Origin: Thioalkalivibrio sp.
Lineage (GTDB): Bacteria; Pseudomonadota; Gammaproteobacteria; Ectothiorhodospirales; Ectothiorhodospiraceae
NCBI GenBank assembly: GCA_007116035.1
Contig: SKJG01000087.1
Coordinates: forward strand, 1 to 52,038
Length of the DNA stretch: 52,038 nt
Direction: 5' to 3'
The notes beneath the pieces were generated by a model. It was not told the origin of the DNA. It searched no databases and saw only the letters and a program-made list of their open reading frames with translations. Positions 16,457 to 24,792 of the stretch are shown here, one piece after another. A program made the position numbers and the translations under genes. How positions within the stretch are numbered: position 1 is the first letter of the stretch; every line of letters begins with the position of its first letter.

Positions 16457-16807
16457 CTAGCCAGATTCGGTGGCCGCCCCGGTCTTCCACCACGCTCGCA
16501 TGCCGCCCTTCAGTTGCCTGGCGTCGTAGCCGCGTTCAGCCAGCTTCCGGACTGCGGGAATACTCCGATGCGCCGTCAGGCAGATCGCGACCACCGGTCG
16601 TTCCCGGTCCAGGCCGAGTTCCTCCAGATGCGCGTTGCTGAAGCGCGTGATCGAAAGGTGTCGCGCCCCGGGAATGCGACTGCGGCGGAACTCCGCGTGG
16701 GTACGCACATCGAGCACCTGGACTGACCCGTCCGCAACCGCGGTGGCGAGATCTCCTGCGTCCATTTCAGGTACCCGTCCGAACGGCCACCAATTTCCTA
16801 TTCTCAT
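16457..16807 (-). CDS. Single-domain rhodanese (sulfurtransferase)
   Basis: 116 residues, one rhodanese domain. The active-site loop CLTAHRS at 76-82 has the catalytic C76. DVRTHAEFRRSRIPGARH at 33-50 and GYDARQLKGGMRAW near the end are family landmarks. No signal peptide, so cytoplasmic. The start at 16807 has GGAGAA upstream; the frame is open to 16912 but without homology. It may carry persulfide sulfur, in keeping with the neighbouring sulfur globule gene, or serve the biosynthetic locus to its right; sequence does not decide. Confidence 0.88.
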   Translation of the reverse strand: MRIGNWWPFGRVPEMDAGDLATAVADGSVQVLDVRTHAEFRRSRIPGARHLSITRFSNAHLEELGLDRERPVVAICLTAHRSIPAVRKLAERGYDARQLKGGMRAWWKTGAATESG

Positions 16808-16862
16808 GCCGTGTTCTCCAAAGCTTGGCGTCACCACTCCAGTGGGTACCGGAACCGTGCCG

Positions 16863-17045
16863 CTGCTGGCGCTGGGCCTTGAATGCGAAGATGAGCCCGA
16901 TCTCATCGCCAACCAGGCCGCGTGAAAGGCCGTAGGTCATGCCCCATTCGCTTCTGTGGATGGTGCCCCCCAGCGACGCACTCAGAACCCGAGGCCGCGA
17001 GCACAGGCCACCCAGCGGAAACGGGTACGGCAGGGTCACCGGCAT
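16863..17045 (-). pseudogene. C-terminal remnant of a YceI-family gene
   Basis: Translation of the minus strand from 17045 gives 61 residues with the C-terminal signature of YceI lipocalin-like proteins (GGTIHRSEWGMTYG, then LVGDEIGLIFAF). The first 120 or so residues of a normal YceI protein are absent: upstream the same frame is only a shadow of the phosphatidyltransferase gene. The frame stays open to 16767, into the rhodanese. I read this as a truncated gene fused end to end with its neighbour. An alternative is a 92-residue gene whose ATG overlaps the upstream stop by 10 nt, but no ribosome binding site at useful spacing is seen. Confidence 0.6.
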
Positions 17046-17818
17046 TCCTCTAAAAGGTTGCGGTCCTGGCGGTAGAGCCAGAGCACGTCCACCATGAAGG
17101 AATAGGTGAGCAGCATCAACGCCGCGAGGGCAATCGCGCTCGCGAGTTCGGGGGAAACCACGGGTGCCAGTGCCACCAGGAGCGCGACCGACTGCACGAC
17201 ACAGACCGTTTGCCGGCGCCGGCTCGGCGGCAGTGCGCCCTGCAGCCAGGTCCAGCGCCATCCCGCAGCAACGAACAGGTAACGCATCAATCCGATCAGC
17301 AATACCCAGAGGCCCGCCTGTCCCGTCTGCCAGACCAGGATCGCCATGACGAGGATCAGGAGGGCGTCGAGTTCCATATCGAAGCGTGCGCCAAAGGCGG
17401 TGACACGGCCGGTGCGCCGTGCCACCGCCCCGTCCAGTCCGTCGAGCGCCAGGGCGAAGCCCGCCAGGCCAAGCAGCCAGTACGTTGCGCTGGCATCGAG
17501 ATGGGCAGGGAGCAGCGCCATGCCGGCGACCGGCATGACCAGCGCGGCGCGCAGGAAGGTCACCCGGTTGGCGAGCCCCGGTCCGTCGCGGTGAAAGACC
17601 GCCGGGGAGGTATGCAGGACCATGCACACCAGGAGCCCGTAGGACAACAGCGATACTGCGAACACCGCGGCGGGCACCCCGGCCGCGAGGTGAAGCAGCG
17701 AGGCCCCGGCCAGGACGGTGAGAAGTCCGACGGTGAGCTCCGTCCTCCAGATACCCGCGTGCGCTGCGAATTGCCGGGCCTTGTGTCGTACGCCTTTGTT
17801 TCCAATCCTGGTTTTCAT
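17036..17818 (-). CDS. CDP-alcohol phosphatidyltransferase family membrane protein
   Basis: 260 residues, integral membrane. The full CDP-OH-P signature is present: D126, D129, G130, A133, R134, G143, D147, D151 with exact family spacing. Several hydrophobic segments flank it (about 28-70, 90-125, 153-190, 205-250). Such enzymes move a phospho-alcohol or phosphatidyl group between CDP-linked donor and an alcohol; the substrate is not readable. Residues before the motif (SPAVFHRDGPGLANRVTFLR) resemble the lead-in of PgsA-like enzymes. It is divergent from the MDR dehydrogenase gene with 155 bp between, so it may belong to that locus. Confidence 0.85.
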   Translation of the reverse strand: MKTRIGNKGVRHKARQFAAHAGIWRTELTVGLLTVLAGASLLHLAAGVPAAVFAVSLLSYGLLVCMVLHTSPAVFHRDGPGLANRVTFLRAALVMPVAGMALLPAHLDASATYWLLGLAGFALALDGLDGAVARRTGRVTAFGARFDMELDALLILVMAILVWQTGQAGLWVLLIGLMRYLFVAAGWRWTWLQGALPPSRRRQTVCVVQSVALLVALAPVVSPELASAIALAALMLLTYSFMVDVLWLYRQDRNLLEECR

Positions 17819-17877
17819 GGTTTTCTTTCCTGAATCCTATCAGTCCGCAGGGGCGGCACACTCCGGTTGCACCCGGC

Positions 17878-17908
17878 AATGCCGCTTTCGACCGTGTTCA
17901 GCGGCATT
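17878..17908. promoter_or_regulatory. Inverted repeat in the divergent intergenic region
   Basis: A 9-bp perfect inverted repeat (17878-17886 with 17900-17908) lies midway between the divergent CDP-alcohol phosphatidyltransferase and MDR dehydrogenase genes. It could be an operator serving both, or a hairpin at the 5' end of either message. Confidence 0.4.
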
Positions 17909-17973
17909 TGTTGTGGCGGTTGGGTGGTGACGATGAGTACCATGCAGCGACGCCCGCACCACACCGGAGACCG

Positions 17974-18957
17974 ATGAACGCATCCGCGGAGACCGCCCGC
18001 GCCTTCTGGATCAGGCGACCCGGCATAGGACGCATTCAGGAGGAGACCCTGCCGCCGGCACTCGGCGACGACGTGCTGGTCCGCAGCCTGTATTCGGGTA
18101 TCAGCCGCGGCACCGAAACGCTGGTCTTCACCGGCAGGGTCCCGAAGACCCAGTATGAGGCCATGCGGGCCCCGTTTCAGTCCGGCGACTTCCCTGGCCC
18201 AGTGAAATACGGCTACATGAATGTCGGGCGCATCGAGGAGGGTCCGGCCGGCCGCATCGGGGAGACGGTCTTCTGTCTGCATCCGCACCAGGACTGGTAC
18301 CGGGTTCCCGGGTCTGCTGCGGTTCCGTTGCCCGCAGGGGTGCCACCGGAACGGGCGGTCCTCGCAGCGAACATGGAGACCGCCATCAACGCCTTCTGGG
18401 ACGCAGGCCCCCTTGCGGGCGATCGGATCTTGATCCTTGGCGCCGGCGTACTCGGGCTACTGACCGCCTGGCTCTGTCGGCAGGTGCCCGGCGCGCAGGT
18501 CACGCTGATCGACATCAACCCGGCACGCCGGGCCGCGTGCGCGGCGTTGGGGATCGAATTCTCGCTGGAGGTTGCAGAGCCCGCCGACGCGGACCTGGTC
18601 ATTCATGCCAGCGGGCAGTCGGAAGGCCTGACCGAGGCCTTGCGGCACGCTGGTCTCGAGGCCACTGTGCTCGAACTGAGCTGGTACGGCGACCGCCCGG
18701 TGACTCTCCCCCTCGGCGAGGGCTTCCACTCACGCCGACTGTTGCTGAAGAGCAGCCAGGTGGGCCGCATTCCCGCGCACCGGCAGGCCCGCTGGAACTA
18801 CCGCCGCCGCCTGGGGCTCGCCCTGGACCTGCTGCGGGCGCCAGAACTCGATCACCTGATCACCGGGGAGAGTGTCTTCGAGACATTGCCGGCGGTGATG
18901 ACCGAACTGGCCCGCGGAGACGGTAACACCCTCTGCCATCGAATCCGGTATCCCTGA
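17974..18957 (+). CDS. MDR-superfamily dehydrogenase (BchC-like, lacking obvious zinc ligands)
   Basis: 327 residues. An N-terminal GroES-like domain is followed by a Rossmann domain with GAGVLG at 156-161 for NAD(P). [12 protein letters not shown] at 39-50 occupies the place where zinc alcohol dehydrogenases have a catalytic Cys, so zinc catalysis is doubtful. This resembles the group that includes bacteriochlorophyllide dehydrogenase BchC. GGAGACCG precedes the ATG. First gene of the plus-strand arm of the putative pterin/pyrimidine locus. Likely oxidises or reduces an alcohol on a ring or sugar; substrate unknown. Confidence 0.8.
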
Positions 18958-19067
18958 GCAGATTCAACCGCAGTCAGACCCAGGGAACCGTAGGAACGAA
19001 TCCGCTGGCCCACGGTCATCGAAAAACGATCAACCCTTGTTTCCATTGCCCTTGCAAAGGAGTCCGC

Positions 19068-19466
19068 ATGTACAGCCTCAATGTCCGCGACCACTTCATG
19101 ATCGCTCACAGCTTCACCGGAGAGGTGTTCGGCCCGGCCCAGCGCCTTCACGGCGCCACGTACGTGGTCGATGCCACGTTCCGCCGCGAGGAACTGGATT
19201 CGGACGGACTGGTGGTGGACATCGGCCTCGCCAGCCAGCATCTGTCCTCCATTCTGGCCGCCTTGAACTATCAGAATCTTGACGACCATCCGGATTTCGA
19301 CGACCAGAACACCACGACGGAGTTTCTCGCCCATCAGATCTACCTGCGCCTGGCGGACGCGATCCAACGCGGCAAGCTGGGATCCTCCGCAAAGGGCCTG
19401 ACCGCACTCTGCGTGACCCTGCACGAATCCCACGTTGCCTGGGCCAGTTACGAAGGGACGCTTTGA
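19068..19466 (+). CDS. Divergent 6-pyruvoyl-tetrahydropterin synthase/QueD-fold protein
   Basis: 132 residues, the length and fold pattern of PTPS/QueD. H14 (IAHSF) and H28 (LHGA) match two zinc-binding His, and E120 (LHESH) matches the catalytic Glu. Three features differ from the classical enzymes: the third zinc His (second H of HGH) is A30, no Cys precedes it (FGPAQRLHG), and the LDH segment holding the Asp/His pair reads LNYQNLD at 66-72. NTTTEFLA at 81-88 aligns with the usual NPTxEN. So it keeps the fold but should not make 6-pyruvoyl- or 6-carboxy-tetrahydropterin by the known mechanism. AAAGGAG precedes the ATG; the next gene overlaps by 4 nt. Confidence 0.8.
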
Positions 19467-20524
19467 GCCTGGCCCCGTTGCATCTCGTGGTTCCAGGGGC
19501 CCTGGAGCAGCGCACCGGAGGCTACATCTATGACCGTCGGATCTGCGCCGGCCTGCGCCGAATGGGCTGGTCCGTTCGGGTGCACGAGCTGCCCGGCCGT
19601 TTTCCCGGACCCGACCGCGAGGCGGAGCAGGCCCTGGACCATACCCTGCGCCAGCTGCCGGATGGGTCGACCGCGCTGATCGACGGGCTCGCCCTGGGCG
19701 GCTTGCCCCTGCCTGCCGAAGCGCATGGCGGGCGGCTTGTGCTGATCGGCCTGGTGCACCACCCCCTGTCGGAAGAGACCGCCCTGCCCCCAGCCCGTGC
19801 CGCCGAACTGTGCGAGCTGGAACAGCGCGCTCTGGCGGCTTGCCAGATGGTGATCGTGACCAGCCCGTTCACTGCCGCTCTGCTGCGGCCCTGGCTGCAG
19901 GCATCGACTCCGGTCCGCGTGGTGGTCCCGGGTACCGAGCCCGCGCCGCGGGCGCGCGCGCCGCAATCCGCTGTGCCCCCGCTGCTGCTGTGTGTGGGTT
20001 CGGTGGTGCCGCGCAAGGGCCAGGACCTGCTGGTGCAGGCCCTGGGACGGCTCCCTGATCGTGCCTGGGAGTGCGTGCTGGCCGGGAGTACCGAGCGCGA
20101 TCCAGCGTTCGTACAGGCGGTGCGGGCCGACGCAGGCCACCTGGGAATCACCGACCGGGTCTGCTTTGCCGGCGAGAGCAGCGACGAGGAACTGGAAGCG
20201 CTGTATCAGTCTGCCAGTCTCTTCGTACTGCCCTCGTGGTACGAGGGTTATGGCATGGCCTTCACCGAGGCGATGGCGCACGGGCTGCCAATCCTCGCGA
20301 CGACCGGCGGCGCGATCCCGCACACCGTACCAAGCCAGGCGGCATGGTTGATCCCTCCCGGGGATGTCGACGCCCTGGCCGCGGCCCTCGGTCGTCTGCT
20401 GGACGAGCCCGGGCTGCGGCAGGATCTGGCGCAGGCTGCCTTGGCCCATACACGGACCCTACCCGATTGGCATCAGGCGTCTGCGGCCTTCGCAGCGGCC
20501 GTGAACGAGTTGGCCGCCCGATGA
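19463..20524 (+). CDS. Family 4 glycosyltransferase (GT-B)
   Basis: 353 residues. [11 protein letters not shown] at 17-27 is the N-terminal Gly-rich loop, VGSVVPRKG at 178-186 opens the donor domain, and the retaining-GT EX7E motif is E261/E269 in EGYGMAFTE. Likely transfers a sugar from a nucleotide-sugar donor. The TTG start overlaps the stop of the PTPS-like gene (TTGA), and the stop overlaps the methyltransferase start (ATGA). This tight coupling argues that the sugar is placed on the product of the same locus. The acceptor is not readable. Confidence 0.88.
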
Positions 20525-21327
20525 GCGGGCATTTCCAGGCCGACTGGCTGGCGCTGCGCGAACCGGTGGATCACCAGGCACGCTCCCGGTCGCTGGGGCA
20601 ACGGCTGCAGGCCTGGTGCGCGCCTCGCCAGCGCCTGTGTGTCCTCGATCTGGGGACCGGTACCGGCTCCAACCGGCGTTTTCTCGCGCCGCTGCTGCCG
20701 GCCGACCAGCACTGGACACTGGTGGATCACGACCCAGCCCTGCTGGCCCTCGCCACCGCAAAGGCCAGTGGACAGGAAGCGCGCAGCATGCAGGCCGATC
20801 TCTCGGAATGGCATCGGTTTGCCCGCGATCCGTCGCCGGACCTCGTGACCGCATCCGCCCTGCTGGACCTCGTCTCGGCGGACTGGCTGGACGCGCTGGT
20901 CGCGGCCTGCCGCGAGCGGGGGGCCGCAGCCCTGATGGTGCTGAGCTATGACGGGCAGGTCGAATGGTCCTCTCCTGACCCGGTGGACGCCGCCGTGCTC
21001 GCCGCCGTCAACGCACACCAGCAGCGGAATAAGGGTCTCGGCGCCGCTTTGGGCCCCGCCGCGCCCGGCGAGCTGGCCGCCCGGTTCCGCACTGCCGGCT
21101 ATCACGTCTGGGTGGAATCCAGCCCCTGGGATCTCGGACGTGAGAACGCCGTACTCGCCCAGGCGCTGGTCGAAGGGTGGGTGGCGGCCGCCTGTGAACA
21201 GTCTCCCGAGGACCGCTCAGCATTCCGTGCCTGGGGCGAGCGCCGCTGTGCAGACCTCGCCGCCGATCGTACCCGCGTTCGGGTCGGACATCAGGACCTG
21301 CTGGCGTTGCCGGGACCGGGAGGATGA
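20521..21327 (+). CDS. Class I SAM-dependent methyltransferase
   Basis: 268 residues. VLDLGTGTGSNRRFL from residue 41 is motif I, and LVDHDPALLALA holds the acidic end of strand 2. Cytoplasmic. Starts in an ATGA overlap with the glycosyltransferase and ends in an ATGA overlap with the flippase-like gene. Substrate unknown; position suggests methylation of a small-molecule intermediate. The long open frame upstream of 20521 is a shadow of the glycosyltransferase. Confidence 0.85.
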   Translation: MSGHFQADWLALREPVDHQARSRSLGQRLQAWCAPRQRLCVLDLGTGTGSNRRFLAPLLPADQHWTLVDHDPALLALATAKASGQEARSMQADLSEWHRFARDPSPDLVTASALLDLVSADWLDALVAACRERGAAALMVLSYDGQVEWSSPDPVDAAVLAAVNAHQQRNKGLGAALGPAAPGELAARFRTAGYHVWVESSPWDLGRENAVLAQALVEGWVAAACEQSPEDRSAFRAWGERRCADLAADRTRVRVGHQDLLALPGPGG

Positions 21328-22439
21328 ACGACAGGCTGAAAGGCCTGTTGCGCCTCGCCGTCAGTGTTACCCTGCTGCTGTTCCTGTTCCAGATCTTCGA
21401 TGCCGCCGAGATCGCCGCACATCTCGTGCAACTCGACCTACGCTGGCTGCTGCCGGCCCTGCTCCTTTCCGTTTTGCAGATCATGCTCTTGGCCTGGCGC
21501 TGGCGCTTCACCGCGGCGCGGCTCGGGGTTGGCATGCCCTACCGGCATGCGCTGGGTGAATACTATCTCGGGGTCTTTCTCAACCAGATCCTCCCCGGTG
21601 GCATCCTGGGCGATGTCTCGCGCGCCTGGCGTCACGCCATCGTTGCGGCGCGCAGGCGCTCTGCCATTCACGCGGTCGTGCTGGAACGGGTGGTGGTCCA
21701 GTCGGTGATGCTGGCCGTCGCCATTGCCTCTCTGCTGGCGATCCCAGGGCTGCGGACGGACTCGCTCGGATGGGGTTGGGCAGTGCCGCTCACGTTCGCG
21801 GCCCTCGTGATCGGCGGGGTGGGCCTCCGGCAACGGCTTCCGGCACTGCGGGCCGCCATCCAGGAGTTCGGGGCGGATGCGCGCCGGGCCTTCCTCCCCG
21901 CACGGGTATTGCTGATACAGGTCGGGACCGCCACCCTGGTCATGGCAGCGAACCTGATCGTCTACGTGGCCGCGGCCCGCGCACTCGGCTCGGAGATTCC
22001 GCTGACGACCCTGCTACCCCTGATCGCTCCGGTGCTGCTGGTGATGATGCTGCCGATCAGCGTCGCGGGCTGGGGCGTGCGCGAAGGCGCGGCGGCGCTT
22101 CTGTGGGGGCTCAGTGGCCTCAGTGTCGCTGAGGGCGTAGCCATTGCCGTGGCTTACGGACTGCTATTTCTGCTGGCCGCCCTGCCGGGCCTGCTGCCGT
22201 TGCTTTGGGTCAGCCTCGCCAGAGGCGGAGCCGATTCCAGGCGCCTCAGGGGCGAAAGCAGAGATCGAACAGGATGTCCGAACCCAGGGCAAAGTGACGA
22301 CACTGCGGACGTAATGCCTCGTGTAACGTATGCACCGGATCCAGGGTCACCGAAGCACGCCCCGAGCCCAGCAGCAGGGGCGCGACCGTCAGGTGCAGCC
22401 GGTCCAGCACCCCGGCCGCCAGAAAACGGGACACGGTGA
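21324..22439 (+). CDS. Lysylphosphatidylglycerol synthase TM-domain/UPF0104 flippase-like protein
   Basis: 371 residues. Seven or eight hydrophobic segments fill residues 8-305. FLNQILPGGILGDVSRAWR near 90 and LPISVAGWGVREGAAALLWG near 245 are the hallmark loops of this family (MprF flippase half, AglD-like). Proteins of this family move or present lipid-linked molecules across the membrane. The last 65 or so residues are Pro/Gly/Arg-rich, with no membrane segment, and lie antisense to the 3' end of the RibD-type gene. They look like read-through beyond the ancestral stop. Last gene of the plus arm. Confidence 0.82.
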   Translation: MNDRLKGLLRLAVSVTLLLFLFQIFDAAEIAAHLVQLDLRWLLPALLLSVLQIMLLAWRWRFTAARLGVGMPYRHALGEYYLGVFLNQILPGGILGDVSRAWRHAIVAARRRSAIHAVVLERVVVQSVMLAVAIASLLAIPGLRTDSLGWGWAVPLTFAALVIGGVGLRQRLPALRAAIQEFGADARRAFLPARVLLIQVGTATLVMAANLIVYVAAARALGSEIPLTTLLPLIAPVLLVMMLPISVAGWGVREGAAALLWGLSGLSVAEGVAIAVAYGLLFLLAALPGLLPLLWVSLARGGADSRRLRGESRDRTGCPNPGQSDDTADVMPRVTYAPDPGSPKHAPSPAAGARPSGAAGPAPRPPENGTR

Positions 22440-23052
22440 GGCCCCCGCCTTCGACCAGCACCCGGCTCAGGCCGAGGGTGGCCAATCGCTGCAGCACCGC
22501 CACGGGATGGAAGCCTTCGCCCGGCGCGGCCTCGTCCAACTGCAGGACCTCCACCGTCCCGCTGGCAACAGGAGGCTTTGCGCGCCGGCTTTGCAGCCAC
22601 AGGGTCGGGGCGGCGCCATCCTGAAACATCTTCCGTTCCGATGGAACCCGGCCGGATGGATCGAGAACCACGCGCACCGGATTGTCTCCACGCACATGAC
22701 GCACCGTCAGCTGCGGGTCGTCGGCGAGCACGGTCCCGGCTCCCACGACCACCGCATCCACCAGGGCCCGGAGACGGTGCAGATGCTCGATGTCCTCGGG
22801 TCCGGTCACGAAATACGAGTGGCCGCTGTGGGTGGCGATACGCCCGTCCAGCGTCTGTCCGAGCTGTGCGACCACCAGTTCCCGGGTCTGGACGAGCGGC
22901 AGGTAGATGGCCTCGATCTGGGAGCCGCCACCCGCGAGGCCGTTGGTCCCTGGCTCTGGGGCAACCGGCTGGCCTTGCTCGCTTCTCCGGAGTGTGGCGA
23001 GGCGCTCGAGGATCGCGTCCCACTCCCGTGCATCCGCGCGTTTTTCGTTCAT
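22246..23052 (-). CDS. RibD C-terminal (reductase) domain protein
   Basis: 268 residues. An N-terminal stretch of about 55 residues without known domain precedes a RibD_C/dihydrofolate-reductase-like domain. AQLGQTLDGRIA at 62-73, LRALVDAVVVGAGTV at 94-108, DDPQLTVR at 111-118 and VEGGG at 200-204 are its landmarks. The deaminase domain of bifunctional RibD is absent. The family reduces the ribose of a diaminopyrimidine ribotide to ribitol with NADPH. Context argues for a side pathway rather than riboflavin synthesis. Its 3' end overlaps the convergent flippase-like gene by 194 bp. Confidence 0.85.
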   Translation of the reverse strand: MNEKRADAREWDAILERLATLRRSEQGQPVAPEPGTNGLAGGGSQIEAIYLPLVQTRELVVAQLGQTLDGRIATHSGHSYFVTGPEDIEHLHRLRALVDAVVVGAGTVLADDPQLTVRHVRGDNPVRVVLDPSGRVPSERKMFQDGAAPTLWLQSRRAKPPVASGTVEVLQLDEAAPGEGFHPVAVLQRLATLGLSRVLVEGGGLTVSRFLAAGVLDRLHLTVAPLLLGSGRASVTLDPVHTLHEALRPQCRHFALGSDILFDLCFRP

Positions 23053-23143
23053 GGCAGGGAACTTCGCCGCGCCGATACCGCGAGGCCCGGGACGGGCCGC
23101 ATGGGCGCCGGGCGTTCACGACAACGGAGGGAATGGACCCGTC

Positions 23144-23956
23144 TCACCGCTGCGGCGCCCGCAGCAGGTCGAGCGGAAATGTGGCGGTATCGCGGATGAC
23201 CTGGGCAACGGCCTCGCCGTAATGAGCCACCAGGCGCGCGCCCAGATCCGGGTCGGCCAGGAGCGCGTTTCCCACCGCGCCCTCGGCATGGAGATCCTGG
23301 GTCATCCAGGCGAAGGAGGCCTCTTCTTCCGGCCCCAGCCGCGCCATCTCCCGCTCGAGACGATAGCCGACGGATACGTTGTCCGCACACTGTTCGATGC
23401 GCACCGATCCGGGTTTCAGGTGCAGCATCATCGCGGTCTCGACCGCACCCCCGTGGAGCCCGTGCCGAAGTTCGCCCGCCGGCAAATCGAGGTCGGCTGG
23501 GGGCGGGAGCCGGAAATAGCTGCACTTGGCCACGAGAAGCCCGTGATCCCGGCGCAGACGCAGTCCGGCGAGATCCATCACCTGGGTGTTGCCGCCATGG
23601 CTGTTGCAGAGGAGAAGGCGCCGGGCTCCGGCGCGGGCCACGTCGGCGCCGTAGTGTCCGATCACTGCCAGCGCGGTTTCGGGATCCAGACTCAGGGTGC
23701 CCGGGAAGCCTTCGTGCTCCATGCTGGTCCCTACCGCCATCGGGGGGAGAACCACCACTGCGCAGGAATCACCGAGTGTGGCTGCCGCGGTCTCAAGCAG
23801 TCCCATGCCAATGTCCAGATCCGTGGACAAGGGCAGATGCGGACCATGCTGTTCGATCGCCGCAAGCGGCAGAATCACCACCGGATCACGGCCCGAGAAA
23901 GCCCGGATCTCGGGCGCCGTCATGTCCTGCCAACGAGGAAACCCGGATCGGTTCAT
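23144..23956 (-). CDS. Creatininase-family amidohydrolase (ArfB-like)
   Basis: 270 residues. Metal ligands of the family are visible: E35, H37 and D46 in EQHGPHLPLSTD, and H120 in NSHGGN; E173 (GGAVETAMML) is a further candidate. The creatininase Glu after the second His is Gly here, as in the wider family. One characterised member, archaeal ArfB, removes formyl from a GTP-derived formamidopyrimidine, the step before a RibD-type reductase. Co-location with such a reductase makes that chemistry the best guess. The ATG at 23956 overlaps the FkbM gene stop as ATGA. The frame extends to 24139, but this is a shadow. Confidence 0.85.
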   Translation of the reverse strand: MNRSGFPRWQDMTAPEIRAFSGRDPVVILPLAAIEQHGPHLPLSTDLDIGMGLLETAAATLGDSCAVVVLPPMAVGTSMEHEGFPGTLSLDPETALAVIGHYGADVARAGARRLLLCNSHGGNTQVMDLAGLRLRRDHGLLVAKCSYFRLPPPADLDLPAGELRHGLHGGAVETAMMLHLKPGSVRIEQCADNVSVGYRLEREMARLGPEEEASFAWMTQDLHAEGAVGNALLADPDLGARLVAHYGEAVAQVIRDTATFPLDLLRAPQR

Positions 23957-24792
23957 CGCTTCGGGCTCCCCGCTGCACGCGTGCCTGCCAGCACGCCCCC
24001 CGGCGCGGCCTGCTGTTCCGTGTGACCCTGATGTGCTCGGTGCCCCTCGGGATCCGGCAAGCGCGCATAGATGTCTCCGGAAGGGAGTGCATCGGCCCCT
24101 TCCTGCAGCCACTGCAGCAAGGTGGAGGCCGACAGCCACTCGGCGAACATATACTCGCGTTGCTCACCGCGGATGGCGTTGAATTCGTAGGGTCCGAGTG
24201 CGGCGAGCCCTCGTACCGCGTCCTCGGCGATCTCCAGGGCGCCGGCGACGAACTCCAGCGACAGCGCCGGAACCGGTTGACTGAGCCCCGCCAGGACCTC
24301 GGCCTCGAAGCCCTCGACATCGATCTTGCAGAAATCCGGAAGACCGTACTCCTCGATCAGTTGGTCCAGGGTGACCACCGTAATCCGGACGGATTCCTCC
24401 CAGGCCACCGCCCCGAAGGACGGATTGTTGCGGCCGAGGTCGGTCTGCCAGTGGCGGGAAAGTGTGGACACCGTCGGTGTGCGCCGGCTCACGGCGAGCG
24501 TTGCCTCGCCGGGATGCCGGCCAACCCCTTCGGGGCGCAGGATGACTCCGGGCCGGGAACCGACGAGCCGACGCAGCCATTGGAACAGATGCGGTTGTGG
24601 CTCCAATGCCACCACCCTGGCTCCCAGGCTCGTGAAGGCACGCGTACGATCACCCAGGTGCGCGCCAACGTCGAACACCAGCGACTGGTCGCGCAGGAAG
24701 GGGCGATAGAGGCGGCGCAAACCGCGCTGCCGCCCCGGTCGCCAGTAGATCACCAGCGAGCGAAGGATGCCGAGCGTACGTTGCCAGTGCAT
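23953..24792 (-). CDS. FkbM-family methyltransferase
   Basis: 279 residues. FDVGAHLGDRT at 40-50 is the SAM-binding motif I, and KIDVEGFEAEVLAGL in the middle is the FkbM hallmark. Family members O-methylate sugars or polyketides. It is the first gene of the minus arm, translationally coupled to the creatininase-family gene. The last 30 or so residues are low in complexity and overlap that gene's start region. Together with the glycosyltransferase it suggests a methylated sugar. Confidence 0.85.
   Translation of the reverse strand: MHWQRTLGILRSLVIYWRPGRQRGLRRLYRPFLRDQSLVFDVGAHLGDRTRAFTSLGARVVALEPQPHLFQWLRRLVGSRPGVILRPEGVGRHPGEATLAVSRRTPTVSTLSRHWQTDLGRNNPSFGAVAWEESVRITVVTLDQLIEEYGLPDFCKIDVEGFEAEVLAGLSQPVPALSLEFVAGALEIAEDAVRGLAALGPYEFNAIRGEQREYMFAEWLSASTLLQWLQEGADALPSGDIYARLPDPEGHRAHQGHTEQQAAPGGVLAGTRAAGSPKR

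Follow-up and report, generated by a model that had tools for sequence, protein, structure and literature searches.

Excerpts of the AGeNNT paper (PMC5445326) describe the subfamily PTPS-IV by an FGPAQ signature and by neighboring PF00925 and PF01872 genes, and give CxxxHGH as the motif of QueD (PTPS-I). We analyzed a window of 52,038 nt, contig SKJG01000087.1 of Thioalkalivibrio sp. (contig G000:C36 of a 3.03-Mb genome), in which a protein bearing the FGPAQ signature, and hence of the PTPS-IV type, is encoded within a locus of nine genes, with three 4-nt overlaps in its plus arm and one in its minus arm. A gene for a RibD-type reductase is among its neighbors and one for GTP cyclohydrolase II (GCH II, PF00925) is absent from the window. 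We propose that the cluster probably converts GTP into a methylated and sugar-bearing molecule of the pterin or pyrimidine kind, possibly destined for the cell membrane. In its specific form, which we favor tentatively and place slightly short of an even chance, a GTP-derived 2-amino-4-oxo pyrimidine or pterin polyol would be decorated with sugar and methyl groups and joined to a membrane lipid. We infer the chemistry of every step from the enzyme families involved. A preliminary description of the locus had pointed the same way; its context of GTP-pyrimidine, sugar, methyl and membrane genes proved to be conserved across phyla, and the roles it gave to a classical PTPS and to ArfB, like the possible membership of a rhodanese, were not supported.

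The medium-chain dehydrogenase/reductase (MDR) of the cluster was found in 16 of 274 genomes of the class, and one or more of the PTPS, GT4 glycosyltransferase, RibD and CDP-alcohol phosphatidyltransferase genes adjoin it at every one of the 16 loci. The sole check that did not start from MDR covered one phylum, Pseudomonadota, and recovered PTPS-IV in 27 of 398 genomes. Within 1.5 kb of it, MDR was present at all 27 loci and GT4 plus methyltransferase at 25, against none of 12 non-cluster PTPS-family loci taken as controls (nine showing CxxxHGH and three without any family hit). At 95 MDR loci (loci, not species; 97 were scanned, and L035 and L036, own-genome GCH II contigs with no MDR, were excluded), the core partners were PTPS (89), GT4 (85), RibD (79), methyltransferase (78) and CDP-alcohol transferase (75), with the UPF0104 flippase-like protein (46), a creatininase-family protein (42), GCH II (39) and the FkbM methyltransferase (33) as further partners. 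Many loci reach contig borders, so that these counts are lower bounds, yet biased towards window-like clusters. The genes are therefore kept together across phyla, whereas a scattering of them in related genomes had been named beforehand as the outcome that would speak against a shared function.

A profile search of genome contigs with one MDR pattern gave 586 confirmed matches, the best 80 of which comprise 63 loci from Pseudomonadota, eight from Gemmatimonadota, eight from Acidobacteriota and one from a Bacteroidota metagenome-assembled genome (MAG). The last (L084) clusters with a betaproteobacterium in the MDR tree and could reflect faulty binning. We examined 12 of 20 plasmid records that encode a PTPS-IV-like protein, and nine carry the full or partial cluster (hosts Streptomyces fungicidicus, S. 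globisporus, Rhizobium, Agrobacterium, Methylosinus, Thiodictyon, Microbacterium, Palleronia and Arthrobacter). In the remaining three, which belong to six Streptomyces plasmid matches (H4, H5 and H6), the PTPS-IV-like gene has other neighbors and no cluster, and therefore not every homolog belongs to the cluster. The phage collection searched gave no match to PTPS-IV. Distance matrices of ten gene pairs agreed across loci (r 0.78–0.89; 0 of 300 permutations as high), and the MDR tree (FastTree) interleaves phyla, with 7 changes against a minimum of 3 when 25 rows without a group are left uncounted. As far as sequence comparison can tell, the cluster was probably passed between phyla as a block. 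Two small genomes of about 1.0–1.1 Mb, G142 (L029) and G255 (L030), retain the YceI, CDP-alcohol transferase, MDR, PTPS, GT4, methyltransferase, flippase and RibD genes, which suggests that the cluster matters to the cell.

In the first step, GCH II would open GTP to 2,5-diamino-6-ribosylamino-pyrimidinone phosphate, the reaction expected of its family. Many relatives encode this enzyme within the cluster or as a fusion with RibD; in the window genome it would be supplied from elsewhere. Whether GCH II joins the cluster in relatives had been posed as a check, and the answer was positive: 39 of the 95 loci include the gene, 30 of them between RibD and the creatininase gene, and GCH II-RibD fusions occur in L031 and L033. 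For the window itself, the preliminary description held that the GTP-opening enzyme was missing and had to come from outside the locus, and a candidate is indeed present among two PF00925 proteins encoded outside the window in the same genome. One is a RibBA that adjoins the riboflavin RibD on contig C19 and no longer has the Cys motif in its GCH II part. The other, a stand-alone protein (G000:C158:19719-20141), keeps the Cys motif and the Tyr, with a GHEGRGIGLW variant, and is the likely supplier for the cluster. A motif similar to this variant was seen in proteins of the L037 and L038 genomes, two near relatives.

Genome G258, estimated to be 100% complete, carries MDR, PTPS, GT4, methyltransferase, RibD, GCH II, CDP-alcohol transferase, flippase and YceI genes together as open frames (L025). 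Our search of G258 gave no match to FolE, FolE2, HPPK or a second PTPS. This genome thus retains the cluster together with a GCH II of its own, and no GTP cyclohydrolase I (GCH I) was detected in it; entry through GCH II is therefore possible without GCH I. If the assembly is right, the pathway in G258 is independent of dihydroneopterin triphosphate.

The RibD-type reductase would follow by producing the ribityl compound with its 2-amino group retained. None of 87 cluster RibD proteins carries both of the deaminase motifs searched, and the best solved relatives of the window protein are 6p8c (5e-30), named 2,5-diamino-6-ribosylamino-pyrimidinone phosphate reductase, and 2azn (2.5e-23). Its family likeness makes it likely that the enzyme leaves the 2-amino group in place. 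We rejected its identification as the bacterial riboflavin RibD, as the N-terminal deaminase domain is missing; the canonical riboflavin RibD lies with RibBA on C19.

The creatininase-family protein had been taken for an ArfB-type deformylase. The ArfB model NF033501 (cut-off 180) did not match the window protein and gave 37 bits for the Streptomyces creatininase, and the Tyr expected with deformylation is kept in 39 of 44 cluster GCH II proteins (Met in two, three unread). On these model scores and the Tyr-type GCH II, we dropped ArfB-type deformylation as its job outside Streptomyces. Met-type GCH II was found only in the Streptomyces plasmid clusters L185 and L194 (with three of the 44 unread), and there an ArfB-like role would make sense. 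The mycofactocin protein MftE was likewise discarded as an identity (115.6 bits against a TIGR03964 cut-off of 172).

Classical PTPS enzymes use a catalytic Cys, zinc-binding His residues and a Glu that anchors the pterin. In the PTPS alignment, the window protein has Ala for the catalytic Cys and HGA for the HxH zinc pair, and most of the proteins have Asn-Tyr/Phe for the Asp-His pair, whereas the pterin-anchoring Glu120 and a second Glu, E85, are invariant in PTPS-IV. The pattern GPA[QRK]..HG[AT]T occurs in 97 of 103 PTPS proteins, and every clade-A row, apart from the unaligned L073, shows Ala in place of the Cys, together with HG[AT]T. The distant proteins of clade B (L031, L033 and L034) have Glu close to the Cys position, and HxH. 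The loss of the catalytic Cys, the third zinc His and the Asp/His pair speaks against the earlier view that the protein acts classically on a pterin triphosphate. The window protein is a close homolog of the SCO6650 structure 3d7j (E 8e-56), which is reportedly zinc-free and without PTPS activity. An assignment to QueD failed on the absence of CxxxHGH (the window reads AQRLHGAT), and the motifs of PTPS-II (CxxxxxHGH) and PTPS-III (ExxHGH) are also absent from the window protein.

The loss of the classical catalytic residues would suit a different endpoint, a glycosylated and methylated ribityl-diaminopyrimidine without a pterin ring, for which PTPS-IV just binds and MDR acts on the sugar part. 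By their families, GCH II and RibD alone would yield a ribityl-pyrimidine, and the lack of detectable GCH I in G258 fits as well. We nevertheless consider this rather unlikely, since the pterin-anchoring Glu and E85 are kept and conservation is high up to Streptomyces, which hints at catalysis at the ring. In our preferred pathway, PTPS-IV, in which that Glu is kept, would bind the ring and help to remodel it or close it to a pterin, and this, together with the MDR reaction, is its least certain step.

Automatic annotation names the PTPS protein '6-carboxytetrahydropterin synthase' and adds a queuosine Gene Ontology term, and the alignment suggests that this commonly transferred label is wrong for PTPS-IV. 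The annotation would favor a housekeeping explanation, in which queuosine, folate, riboflavin or F420 genes are co-located by accident, as would an unpublished remark, in excerpts of PMC5041015, that PTPS-IV serves archaeal F420 and the placing of SCO6655 under riboflavin in excerpts describing a metabolic model (PMC2853524). Such an accident seems to us highly improbable, given the absence of the QueD motif, the second gene of the PTPS family that 14 of 16 cluster genomes carry (of the CxxxHGH type in the window genome) and the canonical RibD and RibBA on C19. Queuosine, folate and riboflavin synthesis, which the preliminary description had listed as pathways that might explain the genes better, do not account for them in view of these second copies. 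CofH scored over its cut-off in only one of the 16 cluster genomes, which was not the window genome, and on this count we also rejected membership of an F420/FO pathway.

MDR, which lacks the catalytic zinc Cys, would oxidize the side chain. The Ser of its GISRGTE aligns with the catalytic zinc Cys of GxCGxD, which sets it outside the zinc-dependent MDR alcohol dehydrogenases, and G[IV]SxG[TS]E was read in 78 of 105 MDR proteins, leaving 27 unmatched by that pattern. No Pfam alcohol dehydrogenase model matched, the only Rossmann match was under its cut-off, and the likeness to BchC by profile was far under cut-off. The AlphaFold2 model (mean pLDDT 93) has medium-chain dehydrogenases as its nearest solved structures, at 14–20% identity; polyol and sugar dehydrogenases are among them, with matches to butanediol, sorbitol, xylitol and galactitol-1-phosphate dehydrogenases. 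Combined with the preceding enzymes, MDR could form a pterin route independent of GCH I, with GTP opened by GCH II, C1' reduced by RibD, C2' oxidized by MDR and the ring closed by PTPS-IV, and with a pterin glycoside heading an undescribed phospholipid. This fuller version is distinctly unlikely in our estimate; if true, RibD and MDR would together reach, through two redox reactions, the outcome that GCH I obtains with an Amadori shift.

GT4 and the S-adenosylmethionine (SAM)-dependent methyltransferase, with FkbM where present, would then glycosylate and methylate the product. GT4 and methyltransferase form one open reading frame (ORF) in some Halomonadaceae (L059, L061); our methyltransferase motif pattern, which we judged too strict, matched 58 of 88 proteins. 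Finally, the CDP-alcohol phosphatidyltransferase would make the product a phospholipid head group, and the UPF0104 protein would flip the lipid. The transferase motif DxxDGxxARx(7-9)GxxxDxxxD is present in 81 of 82 homologs at the loci, and by this sequence criterion the enzyme is a family member with an intact catalytic motif. The flippase-like protein scored well over the cut-off of Pfam PF03706 and 37.4 bits with TIGR00374 (cut-off 43.2). The family model covers residues 2–295 of 371, and homology ends near position 22209; the ORF continues for about 75 codons (22209-22439), antisense over the 3' end of RibD, owing to a lost stop or as a natural tail. We infer the lipid linkage from these two families.

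Genes of the envelope type also recur at the 95 loci, namely YceI (29), OpgH (27), a sulfatase-like protein with a Pfam score at or just under cut-off (24) and OpgG (22). These proteins and cytochrome b561, neighbors in some relatives, would act in the envelope, and the pathway thus points to the membrane or periplasm. A cytochrome b561 gene was near the cluster at nine scanned loci (including L188, L189 and L195), hinting at redox chemistry at the membrane. On the Palleronia plasmid (L191), inositol-monophosphatase-family and PfkB genes adjoin the cluster and could be the missing phosphatase and kinase.

OpgB is known to transfer phosphoglycerol, and the product might similarly be a substituent of osmoregulated periplasmic glucans, moved from the lipid by the sulfatase-superfamily protein. 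The OpgH, OpgG and sulfatase-like counts, seen in several different arrangements, agree with this, as does OpgH within 1.5 kb at 7 of the 27 PTPS-IV loci. We rate it as very unlikely, because OpgG was found in only 6 of 16 cluster genomes and the cluster is also present in Streptomyces and Microbacterium. An obligate link to these glucans was dropped on the same OpgG count, and a glucan role would be accessory at most.

Several observations weigh against the pathway that we prefer. No GCH II gene is part of the window cluster. Among the 28 cluster genomes checked, we found a GCH II bearing the Zn-Cys motif in 14, namely eight of the first 16 (G000, G223, G171, G174, G182, G249, G258 and G272) and six of the 12 others; in the remaining 14 (for instance G142, G155, G266 and G138) we found no PF00925 protein with that motif. 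These carry RibBA-like proteins with a degenerate GCH II domain, and G255 has none. Entry through GCH II is therefore not established family-wide. The same gap affects riboflavin synthesis in these 14 genomes, which likewise needs opened GTP. All eight genomes without Zn-Cys GCH II among the first 16 have FolE2, GCH I is present in 15 of the 16 cluster genomes (FolE in 5 and FolE2 in 11, one with both), and at three places among 99 loci the cluster, whole or in part, has FolE or FolE2 nearby. G258 is a single genome, and its absences rest on one assembly. With NCBIfam models, the window RibD scored 115.8 bits as eubacterial RibD against 112.1 as archaeal, both under cut-off. The best matches of MDR also include threonine and simple alcohol dehydrogenases, and the proposed steps assign no role to the creatininase. 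Six of the 95 MDR loci have no PTPS match (L024, L032, L049, L056, L087 and L091), of which L032 and L056 end close by; in the L024 genome, PTPS, GT4 and methyltransferase genes are located together on a different contig. No CDP-alcohol transferase or flippase gene was seen at the clade-B loci L031–L033, and shared host ancestry adds to the agreement of the distance matrices.

The distribution of GCH I would fit better if the cluster acted on a pterin made by way of GCH I (dihydroneopterin or tetrahydromonapterin) and modified it for the membrane or periplasm, as a signal or cofactor, with GCH II and RibD as side branches or replaceable. The regular FolE2 in genomes lacking Zn-Cys GCH II agrees with this, as do FolE in the vicinity of the G223 cluster, FolE2 next to a cluster part in G068 and close to the cluster in L081, and the existence of bacterial pterin signaling (excerpts of PMC13259868). 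We regard this as unlikely, since G258 keeps the cluster with no GCH I detected and the recurrent partners are GCH II (39/95) and RibD (79/95), against the three places with FolE or FolE2. In the text of that review, glycosylation, lipid, export, GCH II, methylation and gene clusters gave no match. A link to light response, raised by FolE and cyclopropane-synthase-like genes near the G223 cluster (identities read by eye in the translations), was dropped because these genes do not recur at other loci. In G068, the split part (L181, G068:C1:36000-55500) has PTPS-IV, GT4 and methyltransferase genes adjoining folE2 and another PTPS homolog of the ExxHGH type, and a different contig holds the genes for MDR, the CDP-alcohol transferase and a sulfatase-like protein.

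All genes named in the preliminary description are present with the folds assigned to them (Pfam scan), and its 4-nt overlaps were borne out by the coordinates.

Table 1. Features of the cluster and its borders in window coordinates.
Feature	Position	Strand	Basis
Rhodanese	16457-16912	-	Pfam
YceI-like periplasmic protein remnant, 54 C-terminal residues	16866-17027	-	tblastn search with YceI of relatives: 65% identical to the G223 protein, E 5e-21
CDP-alcohol phosphatidyltransferase, divergent	17036-17818	-	PF01066 5.6e-18
MDR dehydrogenase, BchC-like, Ser for catalytic Zn Cys (GISRGTE)	ORF 17908-18957, first ATG 17974 chosen as start	+	
PTPS-IV T-fold protein (FGPAQ..HGAT)	19068-19466	+	PF01242 5.2e-26
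GT4 glycosyltransferase	19463-20524	+	PF00534 5.5e-33
Class I SAM methyltransferase	20521-21327	+	PF13649 6.8e-10
UPF0104/LPG_synthase_TM flippase-like membrane protein	21324-22439	+	PF03706 1.2e-38
RibD C-terminal-type reductase (RibD_C), without deaminase domain	22246-23052	-	PF01872 4.2e-41
Creatininase-family amidohydrolase	23144-23956	-	PF02633 1.1e-61
FkbM methyltransferase	23953-24792	-	PF05050 7.5e-14
4-nt overlaps, plus arm	19463-19466, 20521-20524, 21324-21327	+	
4-nt overlap, minus arm	23953-23956	-	

Among the matches listed, the window MDR is nearest to that of a Thioalkalivibrio MAG (L037), at 92–93% identity. The rhodanese, formerly a possible member, is probably an outsider, recurring at 2 of 99 loci, both Thioalkalivibrio; GalU was dropped as a member, as it recurs at only 5 of 99. 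Ten proteins scanned in the flanks are ordinary (RdgC, MazG-like, S1-domain, EPSP synthase, aminotransferase, gyrase A and others). The G223 relative of the YceI remnant matches Pfam YceI. Longer YceI matches occur in G223 and at L038 (Thioalkalivibrio paradoxus MAG), but the near relative L037 gave none; by alignment, the gene is decayed to its 54-residue remnant in the lineage of the window.

Our open-access PMC searches found no paper on SCO6650, one relevant paper on SCO6655 (PMC2853524) and none on this gene combination, of which an earlier description in the 2012 subfamily-defining or the SCO6650 papers is possible. Nor did they find a report of a pterin- or pyrimidine-headed membrane lipid, with general lipid papers swamping the results for pterin glycosides, or anything relevant linking pterin with osmoregulated glucans. 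Going by the excerpts available, part of the neighborhood (PTPS-IV, PF00925 and RibD) is already in print, and our searches of open-access PMC did not find the pathway itself. The cluster offers a pathway context for PTPS-IV, for which the excerpts otherwise hold only the unpublished functional remark (PMC5041015), in members of at least four phyla, with the laboratory genera Streptomyces, Marinobacter and Halomonas among them. Should the lipid step be true, the cluster would yield a membrane lipid with a pterin or pyrimidine head group.

The PTPS-IV neighborhood of AGeNNT, with FGPAQ and PF00925/PF01872 neighbors, is the same as in the relatives of the window cluster. The excerpts of that paper call PF00925 GTP cyclohydrolase I/FolE2, whereas its Pfam name is GTP_cyclohydro2, and they do not name GT4, the CDP-alcohol transferase, the flippase, the creatininase or a product for PTPS-IV (PMC5445326). 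The cluster also resembles two systems outside this subfamily. Toxoflavin-type pathways likewise divert GCH II and RibD-type enzymes from riboflavin to another product, and are not known to include a lipid step or PTPS-IV. ArfA, ArfB and ArfC begin archaeal riboflavin/F420 synthesis; this start shares with the cluster a creatininase-family protein and a deaminase-free RibD-type reductase, and uses ArfA where the cluster has GCH II instead. A further comparison is offered by Streptomyces coelicolor, whose SCO6650 is a close homolog of the window PTPS and whose SCO6655 is reportedly a GCH II in which Met replaces Tyr and which does not remove the formyl group. Genes of the same kinds are present in the Streptomyces plasmid clusters L185 and L194, whose GCH II is of this Met type, whereas the other cluster GCH II proteins that could be read keep the Tyr.

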